A DNA stretch of 64,000 bases from Zygnema cylindricum (taxonomy: Eukaryota; Streptophyta; Zygnematophyceae; Zygnematales; Zygnemataceae): NCBI GenBank assembly GCA_037447655.1, contig JBBHKE010002024.1, positions 210,842 to 274,841 of the forward strand. The letters are read 5' to 3'. Positions 42,813 to 63,610 of the stretch are shown here, one piece after another. Each line of letters opens with the position of its first letter. Within the stretch, counting starts at the first letter, position 1. Both the position numbers and the translations under genes were made by a program. The notes under the pieces are model-generated. The model was not told the DNA's origin. It made no database searches and saw only the letters and a program-made list of their open reading frames with translations.

Positions 42813-43675
42813 ATGGACGGAAGCAAGAGATCCATGGGGAAGGGCGTCAAATCTGGGCCGTCCATCGCACGTGCGGCGTTGCTGGCCGCATGGATGCTGC
42901 TTATTTGTCGTGTAGTGCGCGGAGCTTTGGTTCAAGCAGACGACAGTACGGATTTCTGACCCGGGGGGGAAATGGGGGATCTGGGGGGGGAGAGGGAGGG
43001 GGGGGGAGAGGAAGGGTTGTGGTATATTCGTGTGGATGTACAGTAGAAGAAAAAACACGAGAGGAAAGAAGGGAGGGAGGGAGAGGGGAGGGAGAGGGGA
43101 GGGAAAATATGTAGAAAGGGAAAAAGGAAGGGGAAAGGAAGCAAGAAGAGGAGGGAGGAAAGGGGGAGGAAAAGGGGCTGGAAGGGGATAATGGAGAGGG
43201 GAGGAGGGAGGGAGACGAGGACGAGAGGGGAGATAAAGAGGGCAGAAAGGGAGGAAGGAGAAAAGAGGGAAGGAGGGATGTGAGAGGATAGGAATTATTT
43301 TGGGCGTCGGGAAGGAGGAGTGGGGGGAGAGGTAGGCGAGCCAAGGGGGAAAACTGGGAGGAAGTGAAGAGAGTTGCAGCAGGGAGGGAAATGGTGGAAA
43401 TAGTAGCTGGCGGTGGGTGGAAATAAGGAATTGTCAAGTAAAGAGGGAAGTCAAGGGTAATAAGAGGGAAAGTAGAGAGAGGAGGCGGGGAATTGAAAGG
43501 AGGATTATTAATTTCTAATTGTGGTGTTTTCGGGCGGCGCAGGAGCCTCCCTCCTGATGATCGGCGCGGAGTTCACGGTGGACGCCGACAACCTGCGTGC
43601 CACGTGGAACAAGGACAACGACTGCAGCCAATGGCGTGGCGTCCGCTGCACGGACAACGGCCGCGTCACCAACAT
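42813..43675 (+). CDS. Exons 1-2: signal peptide and LRR N-terminal cap
   Basis: Exon 1 (44 codons) encodes a basic N-terminus, then AALLAAWMLLICRVV as hydrophobic core and RGA as a likely cleavage site. Exon 2 gives ASLLMIGAEF, a spaced NLRATWNKDNDCSQWRGVRC and NGRVTN, the LRRNT_2 signature (W-x(7)-C-x(2)-W-x-G-V-x-C) that caps plant extracellular LRRs. Exon 1 ends in phase 1 and exon 2 in phase 2. Exon 2 is much richer in GC than the later exons. Confidence 0.85.
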
Positions 43676-46600
43676 GTGCGCACGCACTCTCTTGCACTAT
43701 TGTACTTTCATACTTTTTGTACGGTCGTGCACTATTGTATTTTCATACTTTCGTACTCTATTGTATTTTAATAGTATGGTAACACTATGTATCGCTATTA
43801 GCGTTAAATATTTTTTCCGTCGCTTAAAACATTTTTTCTCCGTACACACCTGTCAGATTTTTGATCTGACGGCTGCGATTGAAAGTTAAGATTCTCAGCT
43901 TTCGATTGGCGGTCTAAAATCCAAAATCGGACAAGTGTATACGGAGAAAAGATGTTTTGAGTGGCTTAATAATTATTATCACTACTAGCGATACACGTTG
44001 TTACTCTACACCTTGAATCGTTATTAGAGTAAAAGTTTATTAAGCGTATAGGAATAATTACCGTTATTGACGCTAATTGGGAATATGGAATTTTTCAAAG
44101 AAATCGTCTACTCTAATTAGGAATTAGGGTTTTTTAAAATAATATGGATAATTCTATTTGAGAATTTGAAAAAAAAAGGTACCCGAATTAGCGTTCAATA
44201 CGCTAATAACGATTCACGGTGTATTGTACTTTCCATTCTTTTGCACTATCGTGCACAATATTGTACGTTTATACTTTCGTGCAGTCCTGTACTTTCATTG
44301 TACGGTAAATTTGACAAAACATCATTTCAGAATTTTGTATGCTTACTATTTAGTGTTTTAACTTTTTAGGGTCCTAAGGAGTTTTGACGGTTGAACGGTT
44401 TGAACCGTTCGTTTTTCGGGAGAATCCAACGGCCCGGTTTAGTTTCGGAATCTTAATGCCGCTTTCAAACCGAACCGTGCAAGTGGCCACACTGGAGCTG
44501 AACCCGAACCGGACAGTTTGCTACACCGTGAATCGCTATTAGCCTTGCACTGCGTATCGCTATTAGTGTTAATAATTTTTTCGCCACTTAAAACATGTTT
44601 TCTCCGTACACACAGCCTATTTTCAATTTGAGACCGCCAATCGGAAGCTGAAATTCTTACCTTTCAATCGCCTCCGTCAGATCCACAATCCGATAAGTGT
44701 TTACTGCGAAAGATGTATTAAGTGGCAAAAAAATATTAACACTAATAGCGATTCGCGGTGCAGTGCTAATATTACTATATCGTCTCCCCTAAATTGTGAC
44801 CTTTGAAGTTTAAACCTAAAATTGAGTTTTTTTAAGCTAACGTACGGTATAACTACAGTACACCGCGAATCGCTTTTAGCGTCAAAGATTAAATAGCGTA
44901 AAAAAATAATTAGCGTTATTAACGCTAATTGGGAATTTGAAAATTTTCAAAGAAATCATTTACTCTAATTAGAAATTGAAATAAAATTTAAATAGTATGG
45001 ACAATTCTATTTGAGAATATGGGCAAAAATTTGGGGGAACCGAATTAGCGTTCAATACGCTGATAGCGATTCGCGGTGTAGTCTAATTTACTATACTGTA
45101 GTTCAAGAGGTGTATGAAATCATTGAACTGTTAAAGTCCGTACGAAAACTGTTTGTTATTTCGTTCAAAAGTAAAGAAAAAGTGTCAGAATACGGCGTCG
45201 ACACGTGGAAATGAGTTGTATCGAGACGGGAAAGCGCACTTAAATTTGATTCGTAGCAATTAAGATGAGGGAAAATGGTGCGAACCTATTCTCACATGTT
45301 CGAAGGTCGACTATGTGAACACAGACTAAAGCGGTTACACTAGGAAATGTTTAGATAAATTAGTGTAATGTGTGTTGATTAGCGTTAATGTTTTCATGAA
45401 TTAGTGAGAGACGATTAAAATTGCAAACACCATGTAGAATAGTGGCCCATAATGTGCCACGTAGCGAAAAATAATGTAGTATTGTTCATTCTAATAAAGT
45501 GATAGCGTTAATAATGTACTGATTCTCATAGCGATGTCCGGTGCACTGTTATAAATGTGCACTATTGTACTTTCATACTTTCGTACGGTCGTGCACTATT
45601 GTATTTTCATACTTTCGTACGGTCGTGCACTATTGTACTTTCATACTTTCGTACGGTCGTGCACTATTGTATTTTCATACTTTTCGTACGGTCGTGCACT
45701 ATTGTATTTTCATACTTTTCGTACGGTCGTGCACTATTGTATTTTGATACTTTCGTACGGTCGTGCACTATTGTACTTTCATACTTTTCGTACGGTCGTG
45801 CACTATTGTACTTTCATACTTTCGTACGGTTGTGCACTATTGTATTTTCATACTTTCGTACGGTCGTGCACTATTGTATTTTCATACTTTCGTACATTAC
45901 AGTATTGTATTTTAATAGTATGGTAACACCGTGTTTCGCTATTAGCGTTAAATATTTTTTCCGTTGCTTAAAACATTTTTCTCTGTACACACCTGTCAAA
46001 TTGTTGATCTGACGGTTGCGATTGAAAGGTAAGATTCTCAGCTTTCGATTGGCGGTCTAAAATCCGAAATCGGACAAGTGTGTACGGAGAAATGATGTTT
46101 TAAGCAGCGTAATAATTATTAACACTAATAGCGATACCCGGTGTTACACTATTGTACTTTCATTCTTTTGCACTATCGTGCACTATATTGTACGTTTATA
46201 CATTCGTGCAGTCCTGTACTTTCACTGTAGGGACGTCATTTTTTCTTTTTAGGGTCCTAACTCCTAAGGAGTTTTGACAGTTGAACGATTTGAACCGTTC
46301 GTTTTTCGGGAGAATCCAACGGCCCGGTTTATTTCCAGAATCTTAATGCCGCTTTCAAACGGAACCGTGCAAGTGGCCACACTGGAGCTGAACCCCCCGA
46401 GACAGTTTGCTACACTGTGAATCGCTATTAGCCTATTGCACCGCGTATCGCTATTAGTGTTAATATTTTGTTCGCCACTTAAGTGGCAAAAAAAACATTA
46501 ACACTAATAGCGATTCGCGGTGTAGTGCTAATATTACCTATATCGTCTCCCCTAAATTGTGACCTTTGAAGTTTAAACCTAAAATTGAGTTTTTTTAAGC

Positions 46601-49600
46601 TAACGTACGGTATAACTACAGTACACCACGAATCGCTATTAGCGTCAAAGATTAAATAGCGTATAAAAATAATTAGCGTTATTAACGCTAATTGGGAATT
46701 TGAAAATTTTCAAAGAAATCATGTACTCTAATTAGAAAATACTCTAAATTTTAAATAGTATGGATAATTCTATTTGAGAATATGCGCAAAAATTTGGGGA
46801 ACCGAATTAGCGTTCAATATGCTAATAGCGATTCGCGGTGTAGTGTAATTTACTCTACTGTAGTTCAAGAGGTGTTAGAAATCATTGAACTGTTAAAGTC
46901 CGTACGAAAACTGTTGGTTATTTCGTTCAAAAGTAAAGAAAAAGTGTCGACGTCGACACGTGGAAATGAGTTGCGTCGAGACAGGAAAGCACACTTAAAT
47001 TTGATTTGTAGCAATTAAGACGAGGGAAAATGGCTCGAACCTATTCTCACATGTTCGAAGGTCGACTATGTGAACACAGACTAAAGCGATTACACTAGGA
47101 AATGTTTAGATAAATTAGTGTAATGTGTGTTGATTAGCGTTAATGTCATAGTTCAAAAGTAGGCGTATTTATGGTAGGCCTTTGGTCGGCGCCTTATCGT
47201 AAGTTGTGTTACAAGCTTTTCATGTGATCTTCTTAGATCGCTACTTTGATCAGCGACCGTCCGATCGTCCGAATCTAACGGTGTAAATAAATTTTTTTGG
47301 TCTGAATGTTTTAATTGGTCCAATATTTGGTCTGAATGTTTTAATTGGTCCGGATAGGTCCGAATACAATATGGGTCTTAAGGTCATATTGTATGTTTTG
47401 CGTACAATAGGCATATTGTATGGGCCTACTTTCACCTACTTTTGAACTATGGTTAATGTTTTCATGAATTAGTGAGAGACGATTAAAATTGCAAACACCA
47501 CGTAAAATAGTGGCCCATAATGTGCCACGAAGCGAAAAATAATGTAGTATTGTTCATGATTTCATTCTAATAAAGTGATAACGTTAATAATGTAGCTAGG
47601 TTCTATCGTACTTTTGTGCACTCTGCACTCTTGTGCCCTCGTGGAATCTCTTACATGGTCGTGCACTTTCTTTGCACGCTTACACTCGAATCTATTTTCA
47701 TGGAATCTCTTGCACTTTTGTACCGTAATGCACCTCTATGCACTCATACCTTGGTGCAATCTTATGCACTTTTGTACCTTTGATGCACTTTTGTATCTCA
47801 CTTATACAGCTATGAACCTTAATGCACTCTCACGCAGTTTCGTACGGTGCACTCTTATGCACGTTTGTACTTTGGTGCACTATTGTATTTTTGTGCACTA
47901 TCATGTCGTGCAGTTTTGCTGTTTTCACTCCCCATAGGGACCCAGACTAGCATTTTAGGGTTGGTGAGGTATGGTTGTTGTCGGTTTGTTTGAGGAAGCA
48001 TTTCATGAGTAATGATTGGAATGACAGTGTGTATCGTTGACATGAAGGTGGTTTTCTGTGCTGTGTAGTTGATCTGGATTTGCTTATTCTATTCTTTAAC
48101 TGCTTTTGTTTATATATGTTTTTGTGACTGGAAGTAAGAGTTAGAAATACTTCTGCGTTTCAAATGTTGTTGAGGCTATTTCCACCTGTATCGATCTTGG
48201 TGTGCACGATACGAGGGGATCATGTTATGAGTCAAAGGAGCTTGCTGGAATATCATGGTGCATTGCTTTTTTCTTTCGGTGACTGGTCCTGGCTGTGCCG
48301 CTGATAGTTTCATTCTCTGCAGATATTTGAATAACGCTCGCATTGGTGGAACAATCAGCCCGTGGATCGGGAACCTCTCGGAACTTGTCTCCTTGTGAGT
48401 CATTTCCACCCATATAGCACTAATGGAGAAGGCAGCTCGATCCTGTCTCTTTGCTTAAAGCCTTTGCTTCAACATTGAACAGACGGCTGTTAAGCAGGAC
48501 AAGTACACCGCCCATCGTTGTTAGTGTTAATAACACTAATTCTGTCGCGACTTTTTTTGGCCAAAATCACAAAATAGAGTTAACAACATTATTTTAGGAA
48601 GTGGACCAAAATCCGCCACGTCACCTTGCACTAAATTAGTATTATTAATTATAATTTTGCATTTACACTAATTTTTCTTTAACACTAATAATGATGGGCG
48701 GTGTAGATAAGGCAGATGTCCTGACTGGAGTCAAGATACAAACAAAGACATGATGATGGGGCTAATGGTCAAGAAAGTGGATGATGCTTGATTATACATG
48801 CCCATCCTTGAATTTATACTTTATTTCTTTTTGCATGCATACATCCAAACATCGACTTAATATTACATTTATATATTCATGCATTAGACATCCACACATG
48901 AACAACTCTTAATTCATAATTTCAATTTTAGATTGAAAATGTCACACATTCAGACATTGAGGATCTTAGTCAAACATATGGCCGTACATTCTGACAGTTA
49001 TATGCTACACCGCGAATCGCTATTAGCGTCAAATATTAAATAACGTATAAAAATAATTAGTGCTATTAACGCTAATTGGGAATTTGAAAATTTTCAAAGA
49101 AATCATTTACTCTAATTAGAAATTACTCTAAATTTAAAATAGTATGGATAATTCTATTTGAATTTGGGTCAAAATTTGGGAGAACCGAATTAGCGTTCAA
49201 TACGCTAATAGCGATTCGCAGTGTAACATAGTTATATGCCAACATAGTTATGTGTGTATACATCCGTACATGCATGCATTGTCACATTGATGCATCAATA
49301 CTTGCTGAGATTCCTACATTCACAAATTCTTTCATTCATTCATGCATTCATATATCCATATATTCTACATCCCTCTGTTCATACATTTACCAGTTTATGC
49401 ACACGTGTGTACTTACATCCGTACAGTGTACACTCATACTTTTATACTTTCATGCACTCATAAATTCATATATATATACAAACATCCATTTTTTTATTTT
49501 ATTTTTTTACATTCATTTTTTTTTTTTTTCATTTGTATATACAGTCGTATGTATTGCTGAATCCATATATCCATGCATTTGTATATCTAGGCAATTTCTT

Positions 49601-52600
49601 GTGTATAACCCTAAAAAATCCTAAAAAACCCTAAACATGCATTGATTACACAAACATAAGCACGTGCACAGCCATGTATGCATATAGATATTCGTTATTT
49701 CAAATAAACATCATATACACACATTTTAACAACTAATTTAAATGTATATTTGGCAGATCAAATTGTGAATATAAACAAACAACACATATGGAAACGTCGC
49801 ATTTTTGGTAATCGTTGAAGCTATATAACTCTTAGGCTTCTGGTTGCATTTGTTATACTAGCAAAATTTGACATACGTAAAAATAGTCCATTCTACATTG
49901 CACAAATGCAATTTTGATTTTTTCTCTCTCTCTCACTCTCTCTCTCTCCTTTACCTCTATTCACCCTTTGGCTTGCAGAGAAATAAAAGGAAACTTCTTC
50001 TCTGGAAGTATTCCAGACTCCATAGGAAATTTGAAGGTTCTTGTCACTTTGTAAGCCCACAAATTCACAATTTCTGATTTGCCTATCTCTGTTTTCAAAA
50101 TGAGAATAGATGACAAACAATTGTATGTTCTTAACTATCCATCAATCTCTTTTGCATCTCTAAGTGATAAAAAAACTAACAAATAACTAGGGAAGGACAA
50201 CCTTTTATTGTGGGTATTTTTTCGCGTTTCACTTTCTCTTTCATGCTATAACCTACCTATCTTATTTGTCCTTTAAAGTTCATACCCTACCTGTAAATTA
50301 CCAGTTTTCGCAATTTTTTGTTTTGCAGAAATCTTGTCTTATTTGTCCTTTAAAGTACATACCTTACCGGTAAATTGGTTTTCGCGATTTTTTGTTTGCA
50401 GAAATCTTGCTGAAAACCAGCTGACAGGAAGTATTCCTCTTTCGATTGGAAACCTTACCACTCTTACTCAATTGTAAGTTAAGGCCATTAAGGGGAAACC
50501 CTAAAAACTTATTTAAAATATTGTGCCTGACAAGGCCACGTGACGCTTTCTCCAGTACACCGTGAATCGCTATTAGCGTTATGAAATAATTAGGGTTAAA
50601 AAACAATTAGCATTATTAACGCTAATTGGGAATTTGGGGATTTTCAAGGAAATCATCGACTCTAATTGGGAATTTGGGGTTTTTCAAAATAGAAGTAATA
50701 ATTCTATTTGAGAATTTTGGTCAAAATTTGGGGGCGCCGAAATAGCGTTATGAACGCTAATAGCGATTCACGGTGTACCATTGAAGGAAAGTCTTGATGG
50801 GGTTTTTTTTTCTGTGTTTCATTATTGAGAAGAAAAGTGTGTGGTTAAAGCTGTTCTGGTTATGTGGATTTATTTTTCATATTGGTCATCTTTGTTTCCT
50901 ATAGATACCTTGATGTGTCTTAGTTGAAAAATTCAAATGTCATTGTGTAAAACGAATTTGAAGGAAAACCCTAATAATTACATCAAAGATTTTTGGGTTC
51001 TGATTGGCTACTGTTGATAGTGACTGTGCAATTGTATGTCAGTTTTCGCTCTCTAGTTTATTATTTTTCAATTTGCGGGACTGTCTTTAACAATAAGCAA
51101 CTGGTGCATACCTCCCTCTCCCTCCCTCTCTCCCTCTCTCTCTCTCTGGTTTGGTATGCAGGAGGCTTGAGAAAAACAATTTAACAGGTCCAATTCCAAC
51201 AACTATTGGGGGTCTCAAAAATCTTCAAGAAGGGTAAGGTTGCGATATGGGATTTCTGTTCTGCTGATTGTTGCAAGGATAGGCAGACAGCTTTTGGATT
51301 ATTTCAAAGTCCCCATCGACATCTAAATCTTATGTTTCACGATGGGAAAATTTTTTCTCACCAGCTTTTATTGCATCATGAACAGGTTCGCGGTACTGTG
51401 CATACATAAAAGTTTATGTTAGGAGAATCGTACTTTCTTACTTCGATGAAGTTTCATTTTGATTGCTAATAATCCGTTTACTTTTTTTTCGTTGTTTCTG
51501 ATAAACTTCACCGATCAGACAGCAGTCAAATGAACACCAGTGCATGTTTTTATCAATGCATGTTTTTTTTGCAGGTGGATCTCCAATAACCTGCTTTACG
51601 GCAGTATCCCATCATCGCTGGGAAATCTCACAAAGTTGGTAACCTTGTAGGTTTCATGCAGCATCCCTCAGACGTTGTCTCTGTTTCAGCCTCCGTCTTC
51701 CTTCCTCTCTCTCTCTCTTTCCCTTCCCCCCCGCTCTCTCCTTTGCTCAGTGGAAATTCCTTTTACGTTTTCACTCATGTTTGCAACAATATTATATGCA
51801 TAAATGCATTTTGTTTGCTATATATATTTTGCCCATATAGCTCGTTTCCATTATATGTATGACGTCGAAATCAAAGTCAATTTCAGTTCAGTAATTGTTT
51901 TCAGTTACACATTTTTGCATGAATCGCAAAAAGAAAACATAAGATATGTGAGGGTTTGAGCATTGATGTGACTTCAAGCTGGAACATTTGACTTGCAGAC
52001 GACTCGAAAATAATTTTCTTAGTGGTCCGATTGGAATCACCTTTTCTGGAACTGAACCACCAAACTTAAATTTCTTGAACAACTATTTAACTGGGCCTAT
52101 CAATGTATCTTCAACAAGTGGGAAAAGAGTATGTCCTCTTCTCGAAAATAATTGTATGTTCGATCCTTCTTATGTGGCGTCTTGCGGCACCTACAACCAA
52201 CGGACGAATGCCACCTGTTCTCAGTTTTGTGATGTTTTCCAACCATTTGGATTATGTGGAGGATTTGGGACTTGTCTCCCAAATGCAACCTGCTTATGTG
52301 ACTCTGGATTTGCCACGATTTTAAACAAGCCAACATGTGTCGTGGCAGGTGAGTCCTGTAGAGGAAAAGTACACCGTGAATCGTTATTAATGTTAACACT
52401 AATAGCAATACACAGTGTAGCATTCATCATTTGCATATTTGCAAGGCTGACTATTTGACATTTGTATTTGACAAGCTGTAAAAATATTCGCAAAAAAATA
52501 TTTTTACCAACATGTCTTTTTTTTTTATCTGCATAGTGTGTTTACGTCAATTTTAGTTTGCAAAATAGACTTCCTAAAATACCCATACTCAAACGTCAAA

Positions 52601-55600
52601 TTTGTCTAAGAAATTTGCAGGCGTCAACTTTCTCATCCACAAAAACAACCAACGTCAAATGAAAATTTTGCTGCAAATCTAAGAGCTGTCAACTTTTATC
52701 GAACATGAAGCGTTACATTCCTCGTGTGTGTGATAATAGTAGGCAAAAATTTGACATTTGTCATTTGATATTTAACATTTGACGCGTGACTTTGTGATGA
52801 GTTGCTTGCATTTCGTATTGGACTTCTAGGAAGATTTTGGAATTTTATTTTTTTTTGACATTTTGTCATTGCAATGGCTGTGAGTCCTTTCTAGCTTAAA
52901 AAATTCGGCAAACCAATCCAGTTGCTGAATGATTGACACCCGCTGGGGATAGGGTTAAAAACGGCTGTCCACTTTTTAAAGATTATTTGGATGCCCGTCT
53001 TTTGTCGACACAATTTGACATTCGTATTAAATTGTTCATAATTAAATTGTTCGTAATTACGGTTTTAGGAGAGGAAGGGACATACAAATGGATGAGAAAT
53101 ACTTAGAACTTGGGACTTAGAGAAATGGTGCGTTTGGTGGCTAATGCCAAGAGTGATTACATTCATTAAGTTTGCCTCCCAACTTATAGTAATCGCTTTC
53201 ATCGAATGTTTGGCATGTTTACGAGGGCTCGAAGTACAATACAACACTTGTTTAGTCCAATTATTGTGTTTCCTAATTCCAACATTTATGTTTGTATGAG
53301 TATTTGTAAATTTGACCTCTTGTTATGAACAAGCCATTTGAATGAACTTGACTACAAAATATGGACGACTTAGACAGCTATTGGAATCTCCATCGATTGC
53401 TCTTCTCTCCCTTCTCTACTCTCTACTCAATTGCTCCGTGTATTCAAATTTTTCCTCACCTTCACCTCTCTCTCTCTCTCCCGCTCTCTCATTATACTTT
53501 TTGCGTTCGTCTTCCCTACCCCTTCTGTGGAGTTTATCACTCCCCCTCCTATGCTCCTCCTCTAACCTTACCTTCTCCTCATACTTTCTATCAACCCTCT
53601 TTCTCTTTTTCCCTTTCTCCCTCCCCCCTCTTTCTTCTTGTTCTTTTATCCACTATAGCTTTTAAGATGTGCCTTACGTCCATGTACTTGAGCTAAAAAG
53701 ATCATGTTGTTAACATTCGCGGTTGAAGTCGATTATGCAGTCTCTTCTCCACCTTCCTTACCTCCTCCGTCATCACCTCCCCCGCCTCTCCCACCGCCAC
53801 CACCACCATTGCTAAGTAAGTCTTCTCATGCTCATGTTTTACTCAATCGATTCTTGTCTCCTTGATGTTTCTTTAGGAAGACTTGGGTTTGTGTCCAAAG
53901 TTTGTTGGTCAAGCCCTTTCCACCCTTACGGGCTCCAAGTATATCTCCTCGAAGTTTTAGCTTCCTAAAAAAGTAATATTGAGGTTTTCTGTTATTGGCT
54001 TTATTGGACATTGAAATAACGCAAAATATCACCTTCTTAGTCCAGTTTGTGTGGTTTGTCACAAAGGCTCTAAGAAACAAAGGTACTATGTCAATCTTTT
54101 GAAGGAAGCAATTAGTAACATATGCTTTTAAAACCCTCGTTGTCCAATTTTGTTGAAAACGTCTCATAGGATTATACAGATTGTTGTCAATAGGAGTCTT
54201 ATCTTGCCACGGTTGTCACTAGTGATCTTTGGTCTCACTGCAGATTCACCATCACCTCCTCTTTCTCCTCCTCGTTCTCCTCGACCACCTCCCGTTTCTC
54301 CTCCTCGTCCCCCTCCCCTTTCTCCTCCTCGTCCCCCACCCCAACCTCCCCCATTTCCACCTCCACTACCTCCTCGTCCTCCTCCCTTCCCATCTCCTCC
54401 TTCTCCGCCACCACCACCTCCACCTTTCCCACCACCACCACGACCACCACGACCACCACCACGACGACCTCCCCCTCTACTACCTCCTCAACTTCTCCTG
54501 AGACCTCCATTGCCTCCTTCCCCACCACCTCCACGACCTCCCCCTCTACTCTCTCCTCAACCTCCCCCGAGACTGCCATCGCCTCCTTCACCTTCGCCCT
54601 ATCCTCCTCGTATGTCCTTATCTGCACTTTAGTATGTGAGCATGTGAATTGTAATCAAGATATTTTGCCGCCTAGGTTGCAAAGAGTCAACTCTCCTTTA
54701 TGGTTCTTCAAAATTTTCAACTTTATCTCTCGGTTTTATTTCGCGAGGCTAACTTTTTAGCGACAAATACTCATAAAGCCCTCAATTATCTCTGGGCTTG
54801 TGTATCGGATAAGACTTTCTGGCACCAAAGACAAACAGCACTTTTTCCCCATACCTCTTTGCAGCTTTGTCGTCCCCACCGAAGAACTCGACCCTCAACC
54901 CTCCCCCTCCTCCACCACAGCCACCGTCTCCTTGCCCTCCACCTCTACCACGACCTCCACCTTCCCGTATGTCTTCAATTTCTGATTATTTGAAAAAAAG
55001 CTTGTGTAAAAAACTTGTGGTATTGACTTCTGAATGCTGCATGCTTGTTGTGTGCTTCTTGTCTTTGTCAATGATTGGTTTTTTGCAGAAAGGGCCGTCG
55101 TTCAATCATTTACACTGTCTCACTTCTATATAACTAAATTTTCGCTTTTTGTTTTTTGCTTTCGGTACTATTTTTTTTTGGTTCTTTACGTGTTGCATTG
55201 ATGTAGAATAACACGTAGAATAATTCTTTAACTGTTCACCAAACCTTTTTTGTGGTACATTCCAAATGTTTTCCAATAGGGATTTGATTTGCTAAAATGA
55301 AATTAGTGAATGAACTTTTGTGAAGGCAGATGGGATTTTGTCCTATCCACAAAGGTACAACACCTTGTTTGATGTACATCGACCTGCTGCATTTAGAATG
55401 CTATACCTCAAAGCATTTGTGGTATTTATTAAGCTGTAGTAAATTACAATTTTGATTAAACTAGTACCCCCTAATGTGGTAACACCCTAACACTACACCG
55501 TGAATCACTATTAGCGTTATGAAATAATTAGGGTTAAAAAACAATTAGTGTTATTGACGCTAGTTGGAAATTTGGGGATTTTCACGGAAATCATCGACTC

Positions 55601-58600
55601 TAATGGGGAATTCGGGGTTTTCCAAAATAGAATTAATAATTCTATTTGAGAATTTTGGTCAAAATTTGGGGGCGCCGAAATAGCGTTATGAACGCTAATA
55701 GCGATTCACGGTGTAATAATAAAACCCTAATGTTGACGTCAAACTTTTAATTTTTAAACGTCATTCTTATATCGCGCAGGCTTTATTTACTTCACCCTAA
55801 CGCTAATCGGACAAGTTGTTTTTGCTGATGAATTTACAGTAGTTCTTATGTAGACAACTTATTCCGTTTAGCGTTGTTCATTCTTGTGCGTCCATTTCAC
55901 GCAAACGAGTGTCTTTGATTAGCCTTTCTTTTACCTCCTATTTCACCCCATTTAATTTTGTACAATCCAACAAAAACGTGCCACTTAATCAGTCTTTATA
56001 TTTCTGTTTGTGTTGATTTACATTTCAACGAGTAACTGAACTTTTGTGAAAGTAAAGCATGAATTTTACAGGTAGCATACGGATTAGACCTGTTTTACTA
56101 GTTGAATGCGGATAATACTTTTTATAATACTGCATTTTAGAACTATGTCTCAAGACGAAAGACAGAACATAAAAGTGACCCTAAAAAACCCTAAAAAAAC
56201 CCTAAAAAACCTTTATGGATTTAGCATCAAAATGTACAATTTAAAGCCAAACCTGTGTAAAAAAAGGACGAAAATGGTCTTTCATTTTGCATGTGAACTT
56301 GTTCTGAATTACGCATTTTGGCACTATATGGTGTGATCAAATTCACAAATTTATCATTGTTTCACAATGTTTACATGTGCGCTTATAACAATAATTTTGC
56401 CGTTTTCCTGGGTGACCTCTTTTTGTAGGCTTCCCCACTCCACCAACCCTACTTTCCCCTCCTTCCCCCCCCCCACCATTATTCCTTCCCCCCATGCCTC
56501 CAGCATCATGGCCGCGTCCGCCACCACCGGGTATGTTTTTTTATGGGCTTTGACTTATATTAATGTGACAATGCAATGGTCTTTCAATTTCCAACCTTTG
56601 GTGACCATGGACACTCACCACCCTGGTGGAATATGCTGCTATTTTTTTTTTTCTAAAGAAGATAAGGCTCTCTCTCTCTCTGTTATTTGAAGGTTCGACA
56701 TACACATCTGAGGGTGTTGGGGACCGATTCCATTTACTTTCTTGAGAAATGTTTTCGTCCTCGTATCGGCAAACTATACTTCGAAGTCTCGTTGTCTCGT
56801 GGCGATGTTGTTTTGGCATGTTAAACACCATATTCAAATTAATGGCAAAGACATGACATAAGCTTCTTGACAGATAAATTGTCGAGTAATCCGTATCCAC
56901 GATGGGGCGATGTTGTTCACCAATTTGAGCCGTAAAAGCAAATAGTTTTCCTTTCAGTTCTCCTCTAGGATTTTTTTTAGTCTTTATTAAACATTGGGAA
57001 ATCCAATAAAGCACTTTTGTTCCTCATTTAACTTGTAAAAACCGTTAGCTTCCTATTACCGGTTTATCGTATGATTGCAAAACCAAACACATTAGCATTC
57101 TCATTATCCAATCGATGAACTCTTTGCAGGTATCCCCATTTCATTAAAGCCGCCTCCTCCACCTCCTCCACCTTCTCCACCTTCTCCACCTTCTCCAAGT
57201 ATGTCCTCATTTAAAATTTCTGTCGTAGTATCATGTGATATAATGATATTGTTGCACTCAGAGTGTGAGTTTGTGCTCAAAAAGCTACGAACACTTGACT
57301 TGTGTCCTCTTTCTAATGTCCTCTCCTAGTCAATTCTTCGATATTCATGTCGAAATGTTAAAATTCCATATGTGATTATTTTACATGTTAACGGATCGTG
57401 CCGGACGTTTTGTGTTTCAAAGTTGATTAATTAATCCTCTTGACATCCACGTTCTTGATTGATGTAGAGTTTCCTCCATCCCCACCTCAACCCTCTCCTC
57501 CTTCCCGCCTCCCTCCACCTCCATCTCCTCTATCCCCACCAGCTCCCCGTCCTCCATCTCCCAAGTCTCCACCTCCTCGTCCTCCATCTCTCAAGTCTCC
57601 ACCTCCTCGTCCTCCATCTCCCAAGTCTCCACCTCCTCGTCCTCCATCTCCCAAGTCTCCACCTCCTCGTCCTCCATCTCCCAAGTCTCCACCTCCTCGT
57701 CCTCCTCCAATTCGTTACCCTCCCCCTCGGAGGCCACCCCGACCACCACGTAAGAAACGTTTAGTTTCTTTGTTGCCTTTTTTTTTGTCGGATAGTTCAT
57801 TGTCGGGTGCCATTGTTTTGTGCTTATCTATTTATTTTTGTTCCGTGCAGTCTTTTCTGTTTGGTGCACACCTTTTTTCTTTGTTGTTTTCGCAGAGCTT
57901 TCACCTGCTCGATTTCACGTTCGTCGTACGGCTGATTTAGAATTATTTCACATTAGAACGGATACAAGCCGGTGTACAGTACAAAAATTTACTGCTCTAA
58001 AGGATTCAATGCGGTGGTAGATCGTGCTATTTACATAAGAAGTGACAACGCACTTCCGGCTTTGTACTGCTTTTCCGGCTTCTATTCTAAAAGGCTTTCA
58101 CATAGCCTGTGTTCATCTCTGCGCTAACGATAATTTTAGGGATTATTTCACAATAAAACGGATCGAACCAGTGTAAAATTTGAAGGATATTAAAGGCAAA
58201 TGTCCATTGTAATGGAGAGCCCCTCGTTAGCCGGAGAAGTTAATGGACCTGCAAGCACTTTTCCTCGTAAACAAAAATAATGACCAGTAGAATTGTGTTC
58301 TTTGAACCGTTATTCATATGACAATCTTAACTTGGAGTTTTCTGCTACAATAAACATTTGCCCTATTGGGCTTAGGTTTGGGCTCCCTTGGGACGTTTTG
58401 CGTTTTAGGTTTTGTTTTTTTTTAAATTTGAAACGATGGTGGTTCCATTGCATGAACCGCGTCTTATTTTTTGCCGTTCATAATTCGCCGCTTGGCTTTA
58501 CAAACAAAAAAAGAAGCCCGGGAAGATATGTGGAAATACCTCTTTTCCTACGTGGATCAATGTTTACCTTTTTGTGACAGCCAAAGAAATTTCTCAAAAT

Positions 58601-61600
58601 TTTTGCGGGCAATTTCAATGTATCCTTCTTTTGTTTTTTTCCCATGAGTTACACGCGTAATACAATAACAGGCCCCAATTTCCCACGGCTATCCAAATCA
58701 TTTGCTTTGCCAGTGAATCCTTGCGTCTCGTCGTGTTTTAAAAAGAATGCGACACCTGGAATGGAAGTCGTCCCAATAGAGCCCAACCCTTAGCCCCATC
58801 AGACCAAAGTACACCGTGAATCGCTATTAGCGTTATGAAATAATTAGGGTTAAAAAACAATTAGCGTTATTAAGGCTAATTGGGAATTTGGGGATTATCA
58901 CGGAAATCATCGACTCTAATTGGGAATTTGGGGTTTTCCAAAATAGAATTAATAATTATATTTGAGAATTTTGGTCAAAATTTGGGGGCGCCGAAATAGC
59001 GTTATGAACGCTAATAGCGATTCACGGTGTAATTTCTTACAGCAAAATGCGATGAACCGCAAAAATTGACCCACGAAAGCTCGATGATTGCGATACCCGC
59101 GGGAAGTGAGGTAGGCCACTAATTTTGTTACGCATTTAATAGAGGGAACAAAAAACAATAACCAGGGTTCATTAAAATTGCACGTACATTTTTTTAAAAA
59201 CCTGTTTTTTTGTGGCGAAAAGACATTCGATTTGCCCAAATTTGGAAGTTGATCCAAGGAAAACTTTGGGTCGTGAGCAGCCGGTAGAAAAAAAATGTCT
59301 CAAATATTTTCGTTCTTCCTCTATTTTTTCTCACTATTGTTATTTGTAGCCACAATTCGAGTTGTGAATGGCCAAAAGCATCAACCGGGTCATCCCATGG
59401 GGCCTACAATTGGTTTACCCGACCTTACTTTGGACCGAAAAGCCCTAGCGCTCTAGTATTCAATACGGTACACACCATCCATCTCGATGCGAGTTAGTAA
59501 TTCTTAAGTGCTTTTTTGACCCGAAATCATAAACTAGTGTTAGTAACACTATTTAACTGGCTGACTACAAGCCACGTTGCAAAATGATTGTGTAGTTAGT
59601 TCTAATAAAGTGTTTAACGCTACCGTAACTTTAATAGCGACGGGTGTAATATTCTACACTAAACGTCCATCCTATGTATGGTGGAAAACAACAAAGCATG
59701 TTCAGCTTTGCTGGTTTTTATTTCATTCTATGCAGACCTTTTTTCATTCGACGCTTTTTGTCCAGTCCTATTGTTTTGTTCACATCGTGTTTTTGTTGTT
59801 CGGTCGACACTTTTGTGTGTATGATACTTTTTTGTGGAAATTTCTTCTAACCTTTTTTATTTTGATTGGGACACTTCTTTTTTCGTCTGACCATTTTGTT
59901 TGATCCTGTTGGTCGGTGCACACCTTGTCTGAGGCAGTTTTTTGAACAAAAGTGCAGCTTTTTTATCACGCAGAGGTAATAAATAACTATTTCATTAGAC
60001 GTGTATAACAAGCGTATTAGATGGAGTCATATGCATGGCTAATTTTGTCTTTTAGACATTGGAGATGAAATCGTGAACATTTGTCAATGCTGACGTCAGC
60101 ATAAAAATTTTCGACGCTACTATTGGAGGGTCATCTTTGTTGACGTTATAAATCAAACAATGTCAGTGTTGAGATTTTGAATTCAAGGGTGGATTTCTGA
60201 TGTAACACTACATTTGAGTGTAGTTAATCCTAACTGTTGTTTCTACAAGTATGAAGGGATAAGATCTTACTATTTAAACTCCTATGCCCCCGAAAAGGAA
60301 AAGGTTAAATGGCATAAATCAAGTTGCCAATTGATTAGGGTTTTTAATTCTGAATTTGGTCTGCTTTTTAAACCTTGTTTTTTTCAAAATATAATGCTTA
60401 TTATACTTGCAAAATTGCACTACGCCTAGTTTACTCTTTTTGTATGTATAATAAGACATATAATGCCACACTTTTGTTCTATGGTTTGTCACTTTGTATG
60501 TGGACGCTTCTCAATTTGTTTGGCACTCTTATCTTAGTTTACGCGTTTGTTTTACAAACTGCTTGTCTTGAGTGACTGCCATGGAACTAGGAATTCTTTC
60601 ATTTTTTACATGATTTTTATCTTAACCGGTAGTTCTTCAACATGTCCTGGTAGAAAGACGTTGAAAAACTAGAAGAAAATAGAAATATTCAAGCACCATG
60701 ACATCCATGTCTGATGTTAAGTTATGTTTAACAATGTTTCCTTAACAAGCTCTAATCTTAATCCTCCTGTTTTTTTTCTTTTTTCCTTTCTTTTTTTTTG
60801 TCATTAGCGCCAAGGCCTCCACCACCGTTCCCTCCCCCTCCCCCTCCACTCGGTATGTATTCCTTCCAAATTGCTCCTGAGAAGGTCACGAGAAACTGAA
60901 GAGAGGGTTTCTGAATTTTGGTTCCCACTCCAGATGCGAAATCTCGTCGGCAAAAAGTTGCAATATGTCGCCTTTTTTTTTTTTCACAGTACCTACTTTT
61001 TTAGGGTTGTTCTTGATCTTCCCACACTGAAGGATATCTCTCTCTTTTGTTTCTCTGGATCTTCTTCCCTTTCAAAGATGTTGATCAGTTTGAGACAGTT
61101 TCATGGTGAACAATCAAACAAGAAATAGACTTTGAAAGGATTCTCTGAATGGAGGAAAGTGAAGCTGAAAACTACTTGCTCAAGCTATTGACGTAGTTCA
61201 TTGACAAAAACCCTGAAAAAAAAGAACAGTACACGTCTTATCTTAATTGTTTTTTTTTTGTTTCTCTTTGTAATCACAGGGAATGATTGCAGTTATACAG
61301 CCCCGGTAGGCAATTGGTACTATTCTTGTGAAGGGGCTGATTATCCATGCTGTTCTTTTGACAACTTCTGCGGATTTGGAGATTCTTTTTGCAATGTTGG
61401 TTGCCAGCCGGAATTCGGAACTTGCAGTAAGTCCCTTTGCCTTAATAATACGGTACCTTTGCCTTTGTAATACGGTCCCTTTGCCTTTATAATACGGCCC
61501 CTTTGCCTTTATAATACAGTCCCTTTGCCTTTATAATACGTTTATCTCAAGTGGTGTGATGTAGACATTTGACTTTCTATGATATCCTGACTGAACCAAA

Positions 61601-63610
61601 ACCTTGTGGTGATTTGAGCAATAAACATGGAAAGGACATAGACGCTCGTGCATTTTGCATTTGGACACGGAATATTGTAGAAGACAAAGTGTTTCCTTCG
61701 ATGAAGTCCGTCTTCACGGACTTTTTTGTTTTTGCATATGACCATCCTGTTTATCAACTTTAATCTTATGCACGAGACTGTGCGCTCGGAAATGCATAGA
61801 AGAAATTAGGTTGGACACTGAATATTTGAGTCCATGTCTTTGAATTTCACAAGGTATAAAAACTGTAGGATGACTAAGTTTTGAATGGTATGTTCGTTAG
61901 ACACTTGTAGAGAATGCGCAGCAGTCAATGTAACTCTGAGTGGAAAAATTGCTTCATGTGATATGATAAGGAGCAAGTTCTATGAGGTGGTTGAGAGTGG
62001 TTGTAGTCTTGAATAGATTTCACTCAGATCCGTAAATTTGGTTCAGTATGCATGTTTATCCTCTCTGACAAAAAGATTCTCTTGTGCAATTTATCCTCTA
62101 TGCGACTCCCGTGTAACACCTCACTTCAATGAAGAAAGGCAACATCCTAACTCCTCCTCCTCCTCCTCTGTTGTTCTCTTGTGCAACATTCTAACTCTCT
62201 AACTTGTGTGTTTTCACCTCTCAAGTAAATGTCACTTCATGGACAGCGCCGACCAGTGGATCCTTCTTGGTTGTTTCTCCGAGATCTTTCAATGCCTGGG
62301 CGACTATTAACAATAGCTCGACCATCGGTGCTCAGCTTGAGCTCTACAATTGTAAGAGTTTTGAGCTGCTGGATTTGTTTCTTGTGGATTTTTGTTTTGT
62401 TTTTTTGAGCTGCTTTTTTCTTTTTTTAGACGCTATTTTAGTTTTTCTGAGCTGCTTGTTGGAATACTACAGAAAATTTTAATTGCAACATTGTTTCCGT
62501 GGGACTAATACTCTGTTTTCTTGTGTCTTATATTCCAATCCTCTCTGAAAATGATGTGTCAGTTCCTTACGGATACGTCGAGGATTTGGGAGCGCTATGG
62601 ACTTTAAACGTATCAAATGATCTTTACATGTTTCAGCAAGTTCTTGGAAATACTTGCCTGGATGTCATAAAACAGTCTAAAAGTCCTTTGTTTCAAGGAG
62701 GTTCGGCCTATTTCCTCTCATGTACAAAAGTTTTTAATTTGAATTCTTTAGGCTAACAAAAACGATAGCCAATTCAGATCATTTGAACATCATGTACTTT
62801 TGGAATGTTATATCTAGTGATGGAGCACATAGTCAATGACTGGATGTACATGGAACCTAAATGCAGGCCTTCATTTTCCTGGTTATTCTGATTTCTTTCT
62901 CCCTTATCTTTTTTTTTATAGAATGTCTCCAAAGTCCAACACAGCTTTGGATTCCAAATTACATCCGGCCGTCAGATTCAGCTGTGCAATGGCGGCTCTA
63001 CAATTCAACTTTTTGTATTGAAGGAGACAATCAACCAGATGTAGGTGATCCAGAACTGTTCTTATGGGAGTGCAGAAATGCCGACGACCCGAGTGTAGTG
63101 AGACAATTATGGCTTCCACGACCAGTGTCATATGTTAACACAGCATCTTGTAAGTTATAAATCAACCTATTTTTACACAAACCATTTAGCAAACCAAGCC
63201 ACAGCTCGATACTGTCCAAATTTATCATTTGACGTGATCTGTAATGGATCCCTTTGCATTTGTGCAAAAATCAAAGGTGGGATGAACGTATGGTTCAGTA
63301 TCACTACCATTATTGAAATGCATAGGGTTTTTTGGATTTTTTAGGAGTTTTTTATAATAATGGATCCCTTTACTATCTGCAAAAATCAAAAGTAGGATGT
63401 GCGTATGGTTCTGTATCACTATCATTGTTGAAATGCAATTCTCGGTTTTGTTTCTCGCAGCTGTTTTTGGTCTAGTTTTGCCTCAAGCTCCAGCATCACC
63501 CTCGAGTCGACTTAATGCACTTTCTCGACACGCGAGTCTGTCGACAAATCTCCCTCTACTGGCCGACTGGACTCAGAGTTTCGGGGATGCCAAAGACCAG
63601 TCAGCTTGCG
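42813..63610 (+). CDS. LRR / extensin-like / hevein / papain mosaic secreted protein (partial at right edge)
   Basis: Twenty exons: 42813-42945, 43543-43675, 48323-48394, 49979-50050, 50402-50473, 51162-51233, 51575-51646, 51999-52348, 53741-53815, 54244-54609, 54865-54966, 56429-56530, 57130-57198, 57468-57749, 60808-60852, 61280-61426, 62226-62351, 62563-62700, 62922-63149, 63461-63610. All junctions are GT-AG and the frame stays open for 935 residues plus one base. Domain order (residues): signal peptide (1-36), LRR N-cap (45-88), LRRs (89-208), Cys-rich/EGF-like (209-325), Pro-rich (326-672), hevein-like (673-721), lectin-like (722-885), start of papain-type protease (886-935, open). There is no transmembrane helix or kinase, so the product is expected in the cell wall. 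The closest known plan for the first half is LRX (LRR-extensin). The C-terminus lies beyond the window. This model was built by hand from splice signals and frame; transcripts would settle it. Confidence 0.8.
42963..43506. repeat. 540-bp G/A tract in intron 1
   Basis: Nearly all purine on the coding strand, with G runs of 6 to 8 early on (GGGGGGGAGAGGGAGG) and GGA/GGGA units later. It fills almost the whole intron, leaving only the acceptor side with pyrimidines (TTTTCGGGCGGCGCAG). Confidence 0.85.
43780..44003. mobile_element. Stowaway-like element S3 (copy A)
   Basis: TAACACTATGTATCGCTATT ... AGCGATACACGTTGTTA with inverted CTTAAAACA / TGTTTTGAGTGG arms. Counterpart of 45924-46146. Confidence 0.65.
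44007..44223. mobile_element. Stowaway-like element S1, with empty site in copy B
   Basis: TA/CACCTTGAATCG ... CGATTCACGGTG/TA. At the homologous place in the second duplication copy (46141-46155) the sequence reads GTTACAC-TA-TTGTACTTTC with no element, which shows a TA target duplication directly. Confidence 0.85.
44859..45080. mobile_element. Stowaway-like element S1 (copy A)
   Basis: TACACCGCGAATCGCTTTTA ... AGCGATTCGCGGTGTA, with the subfamily interior AATTAGCGTTATTAACGCTA. Counterpart of 46622-46842. Confidence 0.8.
45558..45893. repeat. 34-bp minisatellite, about ten copies
   Basis: Unit GTGCACTATTGTAYTTTCAT + ACTTTCGTACGGTC, 34 to 35 bp. Two units also start copy A at 43692-43760, and degenerate relatives fill 47600-47905. 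The long + strand frames (HYCTFILSYGRALLYF) are repeat artefacts. Confidence 0.9.
45924..46146. mobile_element. Stowaway-like element S3 (copy B)
   Basis: TAACACCGTGTTTCGCTATT ... AGCGATACCCGGTGTTA. Paralogous to 43780-44003 by the duplication, not by a separate insertion. Confidence 0.65.
46622..46842. mobile_element. Stowaway-like element S1 (copy B)
   Basis: TACACCACGAATCGCTATTA ... GATTCGCGGTGTA, duplicated together with 44859-45080. Confidence 0.8.
47147..47451. mobile_element. H1 hAT-like element, 305 bp, with empty site in copy A
   Basis: CATAGTTCAAAAGTAGG ... CCTACTTTTGAACTATG flanked by GTTAATGT at 47139-47146 and 47452-47459. The unfilled target AGC-GTTAATGT-TTTCATG is present once in copy A near 45381-45397. 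Confidence 0.9.
47600..47905. repeat. Degenerate GCAC/TTTTGTAC repeats
   Basis: Irregular units such as TGCACTTTTGTACC and ATGCACTCTTATGCAC, apparently decayed relatives of the 34-bp minisatellite. The frame MCTLHSCALVES on the + strand is not considered coding. Confidence 0.6.
48323..51646 (+). CDS. Exons 3-7: five leucine-rich repeats, one per exon
   Basis: Each exon is exactly 72 bp (24 residues) with phase-2 boundaries. Repeats read NNARIGGTISPWIGNLSEL, GNFFSGSIPDSIGNLKVL, ENQLTGSIPLSIGNLTTL, KNNLTGPIPTTIGGLKNL and SNNLLYGSIPSSLGNLTKL. These fit the plant extracellular LRR consensus with GxIPxxIGNLxxL, which builds a curved ligand-binding surface. One-LRR-per-72-bp-exon is the usual gene structure of plant LRR proteins. 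Part of a sixth repeat opens exon 8 (LENNFLSGPIG). Confidence 0.9.
48504..48705. mobile_element. Stowaway-like MITE S2, 202 bp
   Basis: Best-preserved S2 copy: TACACCGCCCATCGTTGTTA and TAATAATGATGGGCGGTGTA, in intron 3 of the mosaic gene. Confidence 0.8.
49006..49225. mobile_element. Stowaway-like MITE S1, 220 bp
   Basis: TACACCGCGAATCGCTATTA ... TAATAGCGATTCGCAGTGTA; interior nearly identical to 44859-45080. In intron 3. Confidence 0.8.
50261..50409 (+). repeat. Tandemly duplicated 3' splice region before exon 5
   Basis: 50261-50336 and 50338-50409 are direct copies (CTTATTTGTCCTTTAAAG ... TTTGCAG/AAATCTTG), including polypyrimidine tract, AG and the first eight bases of the exon. Only the second acceptor (AG at 50400-50401) leads into an open LRR. 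The first (AG at 50327-50328) would run into a TAA within about nine codons. Confidence 0.85.
50556..50777. mobile_element. Stowaway-like MITE S1, intron 5
   Basis: TACACCGTGAATCGCTATTA and TAATAGCGATTCACGGTGTA, perfect arms; interior AAATAATTAGGGTTAAAAAA. Confidence 0.85.
51999..52348 (+). CDS. Exon 8: last LRR and Cys-rich / EGF-like hinge
   Basis: The 350-bp exon is entered in phase 2 and left in phase 1, making it the adapter between the two halves of the gene. After LENNFLSGPIG and NNYLTGPINVSS it becomes Cys-rich. There is a block with C at VCPLL, NNCMF, ASCGT, ATCSQFCDVF and then an EGF-like run CGGFGTCLPNATCLCDSGF ending PTCVVA. It resembles the short EGF-like signature CGxxGxCxxxxxxCxCxxGF of plant extracellular proteins. 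In LRX proteins a Cys-rich hinge also joins LRRs to the extensin part. Confidence 0.75.
52370..52419. mobile_element. 50-bp minimal Stowaway-like element
   Basis: Only the two terminal arms remain: TACACCGTGAATCGTTATTA followed almost at once by TAATAGCAATACACAGTGTA. It lies 22 bp after the exon 8 donor. Confidence 0.75.
53461..53645. repeat. CT-rich low-complexity tract, intron 8
   Basis: CTCTCTCTCTCCCGCTCTCTC and further CT-rich text ahead of the first proline exon. The frames reading LSLSLPLSHYTF are artefacts. Confidence 0.7.
53741..60852 (+). CDS. Exons 9-15: extensin-like proline-rich region
   Basis: Seven exons (53741-53815, 54244-54609, 54865-54966, 56429-56530, 57130-57198, 57468-57749, 60808-60852), all entered and left in phase 1, together about 345 residues. 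The sequence is dominated by SPP, RPPP and PPPPPP runs; exon 14 repeats a ten-residue unit RPPSPKSPPP five times. SP(n) motifs are substrates for prolyl hydroxylation and arabinosylation in extensins, so a rigid, glycosylated rod in the wall is expected. Tyrosine is scarce, so Tyr cross-links as in classical extensins look limited. Five donors read GTATGT and three continue with nearly the same bases, pointing to duplication of an exon-intron unit. Confidence 0.85.
55494..55715. mobile_element. Stowaway-like MITE S1, intron 11
   Basis: TACACCGTGAATCACTATTA and TAATAGCGATTCACGGTGTA; interior matches 50556-50777 closely. Confidence 0.85.
56178..56212. repeat. Interstitial telomere-like repeats
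   Basis: Three CCCTAAAAAA units in a row, a lengthened form of the plant CCCTAAA repeat; two more at 49608-49635. Too short to be a former telomere. Confidence 0.5.
58810..59031. mobile_element. Stowaway-like MITE S1, intron 14
   Basis: TACACCGTGAATCGCTATTA and TAATAGCGATTCACGGTGTA, perfect arms; third near-identical copy in this gene. Confidence 0.85.
59469..59648. mobile_element. Stowaway-like S2 remnant, intron 14
   Basis: Left end TACACACCATCCATCTCGAT and right end ATAGCGACGGGTGTA are degraded, but the S2 interior is recognisable (ATCATAAACTAGTGTTAGTA, CCACGTTGC). Confidence 0.45.
61280..61426 (+). CDS. Exon 16: hevein-type chitin-binding module
   Basis: One phase-1/phase-1 exon of 49 residues encoding eight cysteines: DCSY, YSCEG, YPCCSF, NFCGFGDSFC, VGCQ and FGTC. 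The order C...C...CCSxxxxCGxxxxxCxxGCQxxFGxC is that of type-1 chitin-binding (hevein) domains, which bind N-acetylglucosamine polymers. It sits just after the proline rod, so it could tether the protein to GlcNAc-containing material. Aromatic residues (WYY and F) are present near the usual sugar-binding positions but were not aligned. Confidence 0.8.
61431..61540. repeat. 22-bp tandem repeat, five copies, at the exon 16 donor
   Basis: Unit GTCCCTTTGCCTTTATAATACG with few changes, starting four bases after the exon 16 GT donor. Confidence 0.85.
62226..63149 (+). CDS. Exons 17-19: lectin-like (possible beta-trefoil) region
   Basis: Exons 62226-62351, 62563-62700 and 62922-63149, all phase 1, about 164 residues. 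Features include GAQLELYN, LGALWTLNV, GNTCLDVIKQ, SAVQWRLYNSTFCIEG, ELFLWECRN and VRQLWLPRP. Recurrent C-[LI]-x-V/G, QW and LW-x-C/LW spacing recalls the repeated QxW blades of R-type (beta-trefoil) carbohydrate-binding domains, but the match is weak and no family assignment is firm. A role in glycan binding is inference. Exon 18 ends at a weak donor (GGAG/GTTCGG) required by the frame. Confidence 0.5.
63461..63610 (+). CDS. Exon 20: start of papain-family (C1A) protease domain
   Basis: Fifty residues. A Pro/Ser-rich linker (LPQAPASPSSRLNALSR) is followed by LPLLADWTQSFGDAKDQSACG. The last part aligns with the mature N-terminus of papain-like proteases, where DWRxxGxVxxVKDQGxCGSCWAFS holds the oxyanion Gln (here the Q of KDQSACG) six residues before the catalytic Cys. 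The exon stops in the G codon before the expected SCWAF, which should begin the next exon, outside the window. The usual I29 (ERFNIN) inhibitory propeptide is not seen upstream. Confidence 0.75.

Follow-up and report, generated by a model that had tools for sequence, protein, structure and literature searches.

A leucine-rich repeat and proline-rod front lies ahead of a modular C1A protease in Zygnema cylindricum, possibly within one gene

Introduction

Proteins of the LRX (LRR-extensin) type carry a signal peptide, an LRR cap, LRRs, a Cys-rich hinge and a proline rod, in that order. In papain, a Trp directly follows the catalytic Cys, and an I29 prodomain is typical of the C1A papain family without being universal. 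Volvox has a wound- and pheromone-induced protease that is secreted and that combines a hevein-like module, a proline-rich part and a cysteine protease; we know of no LRR, ricin-like or LysM part in it. A literature search found nothing on the module architecture described below, and we make no claim that it is absent from print.

Here we analyze a 64,000-nucleotide stretch of Zygnema cylindricum DNA (the window; contig JBBHKE010002024.1, positions 210,842 to 274,841, forward strand), in which an initial annotation had joined 20 exons by hand into a single secreted protein. The window would cover the 5′ portion of a nuclear gene whose product, a secreted modular protein of the wall, would have about 1,480 residues, a length extrapolated from a database protein, P0001. 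The predicted order of its modules is signal peptide, LRR cap, five LRRs, EGF-like hinge, proline rod, hevein-like module, ricin-type lectin, C1A protease, EGF-like and LysM, with two putative EGF-like modules behind C1A that are below cut-off or read by eye.

Results

Splicing the 20 exons between 42813 and 63610 reproduced the annotated chain: all 19 introns are GT-AG, and one open frame runs through 935 residues. All exons lie on the + strand. Exon 1 (42813..42945) holds the start codon and a signal peptide (MDGSKRSMGKGVKSGPSIARAALLAAWMLLICRVVRG...) with its hydrophobic stretch, and exon 2 (43543..43675, phase 1-2) encodes the LRR N-terminal cap (LRRNT_2, Pfam 23.5 bits, cut-off 20.7). Exons 3 to 7 (48323..51646) are LRR exons of 72 nt each in phase 2-2, at 48323-48394, 49979-50050, 50402-50473, 51162-51233 and 51575-51646. 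Exon 8 (51999..52348, phase 2-1) encodes the last LRR and a Cys-rich, EGF-like hinge with 10 Cys. The LRR-hinge block as a whole is phase 1 at entry and exit, and every one of exons 9 to 20 is phase 1-1. The proline-rich rod occupies exons 9 to 14 (53741..57749; 53741-53815, 54244-54609, 54865-54966, 56429-56530, 57130-57198 and 57468-57749), followed by a short proline exon, exon 15 (60808..60852). Exon 16 (61280..61426) encodes an 8-Cys hevein-like chitin-binding module, exons 17 to 19 (62226..63149; 62226-62351, 62563-62700 and 62922-63149) a ricin-type lectin-like stretch, and exon 20 (63461..63610) a linker and the start of the mature C1A protease (...LLADWTQSFGDAKDQSACG). The last base of the window, 64000, is also the end of contig C1525, and the catalytic exons of the window gene are unassembled.

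Splice sites were scored with a model built from the window's own sites, each supported site being left out in turn; models from relatives were set aside for having too few sites. The weakest acceptors are those of exons 12, 17 and 18, with 57, 57 and 24% of background AG sites scoring lower. Exons 17 and 18 are backed by P0001 despite their weak acceptors, and exon 12 is without such backing.

Several features of the surrounding DNA were recorded along the way. In contrast to introns 2 to 19, intron 1 (42946-43542) has a strong purine bias (AT skew +0.446, GC skew +0.793). By eye, intron 2 contains a tandem array at about 45555-45900 with a unit of about 34 bases (GTGCACTATTGTATTTTCATACTTTCGTACGGTC), and several introns contain MITE-like elements of about 220 bases (~58810-59031, 55494-55715, 50556-50777, 49006-49225 and others) whose ends resemble TACACCG(T/C)GAATC...GATTC(A/G)CGGTGTA. 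On the − strand, window positions 8154-9590 hold WD40 exons that resemble, by eye, a Cdc20/FZR-type protein.

The LRR half is, in our judgment, almost certainly real. Pfam matched the 935-residue product above cut-off with LRR_1, LRR_14, LRR_8, LRR_4 and LRRNT_2, and the EGF character of the hinge falls below it (EGF_2, 18.3 bits vs 22.1). All seven proline exons have a length divisible by three, and in each of them the frame rich in proline (55-79% Pro) is that of phase 1, an agreement beyond chance. Over 348 residues, the rod contains nine SP(3+) motifs and no YxY. The hinge exon belongs to a very large, extracellular LRR family: 150 of 417 candidates were scored, the window's own match counted, giving at least 149 matches elsewhere in the 352.8-Mb genome. 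A proline-rich stretch lies within 1.5 kb of the hinge in 5 of 29 fetched relatives. In two of them, L060 and L074, the proline frame closes at a clean stop after the rod; in L055 one frame stops as in L060 and another frame is also listed; L063 and L067 have a possible donor ahead of the stop and may splice onward past the rod. An LRX-like form that runs LRR, hinge, rod and stop therefore occurs in this genome, because the rods of L060 and L074 end in a stop and 31 stretches covering or following hinge relatives (29 loci plus L075 and L076) gave no match to lectin, C1A or LysM with an E of 0.01 or below.

The reality of the protease half is likewise hardly in doubt. With the full product as query, residues 673-936 scored and longer candidates allowed, the sole return among 970 candidates was P0001 (812 aa), which matches that region with 76% identity over 99%; a protein search with the isolated C half as query gave no match. 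Identity over exons 16 to 20 is 77, 80, 64, 83 and 69%, exon by exon. The longest contig of P0001 is 2,925 bases. P0001 is likely to derive from spliced RNA, because its frame is unbroken across the sites of window introns 16 to 19. Its initial Met coincides with the first residues encoded by exon 16, and no signal peptide is visible by eye; for these reasons P0001 is taken as 5′-incomplete.

The modules of P0001 follow in the order hevein-like, lectin-like, C1A, EGF-like and LysM. Only C1A (Peptidase_C1, 128.3 bits vs a cut-off of 20.7) and LysM (37.7 bits vs 20.9, in two stretches, outside the window) exceed the Pfam cut-offs. The window gene contains the first ~20 residues of the C1A domain, which give no Pfam match alone and are confirmed by P0001. 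P0001 continues in frame past the end of exon 20 (...KDQSACG, then SCSIFA with the catalytic Cys), and the catalytic His and Asn follow at their usual places. All four of the catalytic Gln, Cys, His and Asn are therefore present in P0001, and the window gene holds the Gln stretch (KDQ) before the contig ends. The annotated C1A start is thus borne out by a protein that runs on into a full C1A protease, and the expected next exon, opening with the catalytic Cys, is present in P0001 and in genomic relatives, the window contig ending before it. The domain readings of the initial annotation (LRR cap, five LRR exons, hinge, rod, hevein-like, ricin-like and C1A start) were right. A structure prediction of P0001 from six rows (mean pLDDT 30.2) was set aside, as was a 52-row alignment in which short exon fragments were misplaced.

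The hevein-like and ricin-type modules score below the Pfam cut-offs. Chitin_bind_1 gives 15.9 bits for the window's hevein-like module and 16.0 for that of P0001 (cut-off 27.8), and a hevein-type lectin in the PDB matches the window module at E 2.9e-5. One of the three ring positions of what we take, from hevein numbering, to be the binding site is Asp in the window module. The ricin-type stretch has QxW motifs by eye and reaches 23.9 bits with RicinB_lectin_2 (cut-off 25.6), a domain not listed for P0001; single lectin exons of two relatives give 15-20 bits, below cut-off.

Relatives of the protease are common in the same genome. A C1A-to-LysM query gave at least 81 matches, many to the LysM tail alone; at least 25 of the 81, on 20 contigs besides the window, cover the His/Asn exon. 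These are lower bounds, with 77 of 430 candidates scored and the His/Asn matches tallied from the table. Some His/Asn-exon matches are interrupted by stops, which may reflect read-through introns or damaged genes; C1635 and a copy on C1272 appear to be duplicates. In all seven loci found via exon 20 (L002-L008), and in other relatives too, the C1A start is preceded by lectin exons. The fronts vary: C1482 begins with a signal-peptide exon of 61 nt, then has a PAN-like exon (PAN_2, 19.0 of 21.1 bits) before the lectin, C1920 has two lectin starts with no LRR match and no proline rod within the 20 kb read, and the hevein-like exon was found in the window alone (1 of 28 matches, 54 of 54 candidates scored). 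The protease family is thus one of varying front modules placed before a lectin-C1A-EGF-LysM core.

Two further arrangements were seen among these matches. At L043 and C120:9445-17717, two neighboring lectin-C1A units occur with no LysM tail listed on that contig, perhaps one two-protease protein or a tandem duplicate. At C1681:84037 and C2546:108349, LysM-type tails 73% identical to that of P0001 occur with no C1A match listed on the contig, and this tail module may be common to other genes.

Discussion

We lean slightly toward a single gene for exons 1 to 20. The phase 1-1 structure of all seven proline exons, with proline in that frame, supports the join, and the rod exons have no in-frame stop in the coding phase. 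Of the seven proline exons, five (10-13 and 15) have the donor GTATGT, 4 of the 6 rod exons among them; none of the 13 other exons has it. This weakly ties exon 15 to the rod; the tie is weak because the acceptor side of exon 15, which scores 3.75 for rod exons vs 5.83 for others, is less rod-like. T exceeds A in 18 of 18 introns from intron 2 to intron 19, with a left-flank median near zero. This is a weak argument for the join, because the potential intergenic stretch at 58021-59294 is itself near zero (AT skew -0.021; the part before the MITE-like element, 58021-58812, is at -0.093). Agreement of phase at the join says little, given how general phase 1 is here.

The same exons could instead belong to two neighbors on the same strand: an LRR-hinge-rod gene (exons 1-14), terminating within the rod or through a small last exon, and a protease gene that starts from a separate signal-peptide exon, uses exon 15 as a short proline linker and continues through exons 16-20 and onward. 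We take this possibility seriously while thinking it somewhat doubtful. If exon 14 is the end of the LRR gene, the boundary would fall in intron 14 (57750..60807), where a MITE-like element is accompanied by two repeats, an old one (59042-59412) and a common one (~59500-59650). Both ends have precedents in the genome: L060 and L074 finish after the rod, and C1482 opens with a signal-peptide exon of its own. The separate LRR gene could have its terminal exon at 57896..58019 (+), where a candidate exon reaches a stop and has an acceptor above 99.8% of background AGs. The rod-type donor of exon 15 and the stop-free rod exons argue against two genes. The best of those found at a looser threshold, at 59295..59388 (+), reads by eye as a good signal peptide with a cleavage site and has a phase-1 donor, but it sits in a 370-base repeat with copies on C82 and C2338. 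The C82 copy has lost the ATG, carries a one-base deletion and stays similar beyond the donor of the ORF, and that donor ranks in the middle of random GTs (50.6 percentile). The 59295 ORF is probably a chance one. A second candidate, at 57201, has a donor at the 97.9 percentile, but its hydrophobic stretch is short and includes a charged residue, and its start would fall between two rod exons. Across 52.35-61.28 kb, 2 weak start exons with a donor score of at least 6 were found vs 2.8 expected from the left flank. At the looser threshold, 17 start-like ORFs were found vs 7.0 expected, and 5 vs 2.55 with a donor. This excess counts against one gene, and may be explained by the T-rich introns. 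The other start-like ORFs in the interval were set aside as protease starts after these counts.

The genomic surroundings bear on the same choice. None of 27 hinge candidates joined exons 8 to 16 in a transcript, and P0001 begins at exon 16. No protease contig besides the window had a hinge match within 60 kb, as judged by eye among the listed matches, some contigs being short, and this favors two genes. On C1838 the hinge and protease matches are 65 kb apart on opposite strands, and on C734 a lone lectin match lies ~146 kb from a hinge. The 46 kb in six stretches upstream of or between protease genes (C1920, C1482, C120 and C2007) contained no LRR or hinge match, which, like the lack of protease-module matches in the 31 stretches at hinge relatives, counts against one gene. 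That hinge and protease lie close together in the window alone, among the contigs compared, points to coincidence or to one fusion event. The locus might also produce alternative transcripts, a short LRR-rod form ending in intron 14 and a long form into the protease, since the usable terminal exon at 57896 and the continuous phase-1 path coexist; that exon is itself a candidate, and we consider this explanation very improbable.

Returning to a single gene, we see the evidence as evenly balanced on the full proposal: one secreted protein in which an LRR sensor and proline rod are joined to a protease with hevein-like, ricin-like and LysM modules, made by phase-1 cassette shuffling in one lineage. 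The LRR-hinge-rod cassette would have come from a much larger family and been placed before the protease-family core. The rod would be hydroxylated and glycosylated on its way through the secretory pathway and would anchor the protein in the wall; the lectin, hevein-like and LysM modules would hold glycans and the LRR a partner protein, and the protease would cut proteins brought close. The names of the modules suggest a protease that is held in the wall and directed by its glycan-binding and LRR modules.

The protease family alone, with its lectin-C1A-EGF-LysM core and exchangeable fronts, clearly illustrates exon shuffling among wall proteins, in an alga that is presumably near the land plants. 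If the LRR-rod front is truly joined to it, wall sensing and proteolysis would reside in one molecule, with relevance to gamete release, wall remodeling and defense.

Compared with LRX proteins, the window gene has the same modules in the same order from signal peptide to proline rod. It is unlike them in its five LRR exons, its EGF-like hinge and perhaps a protease behind. LRX2 is present among the 179 PDB matches of the window product, and receptor kinases such as GSO1 score far higher; a PDB search with the hinge region alone, taken to E = 1, returned no LRX chain. The initial label of LRX-like therefore holds for module order and is loose for the hinge, which has its EGF character below cut-off and no LRX counterpart in the PDB. 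The hevein-like module shares with wheat germ agglutinin and the Arundo donax lectin eight Cys in hevein order and a CCS....CG.....C..GCQ core. Among plant C1A proteases, ananain and ficin are the closest solved chains, and the alignment of P0001 spans the entire mature domain (E 1.3e-30). Unlike these proteases, P0001 has lectin and hevein-like modules before C1A and EGF-like and LysM modules after it, and it reads CGSCSIFA around the catalytic Cys. An I29 inhibitory prodomain gave no Pfam match in P0001 or in the C half of the window product (filters drop most matches with E > 0.1), so the short linker ahead of the mature N-terminus may be what keeps the enzyme latent. The Volvox protease shares with the putative window protein the combination of hevein-like, proline-rich and cysteine protease parts.
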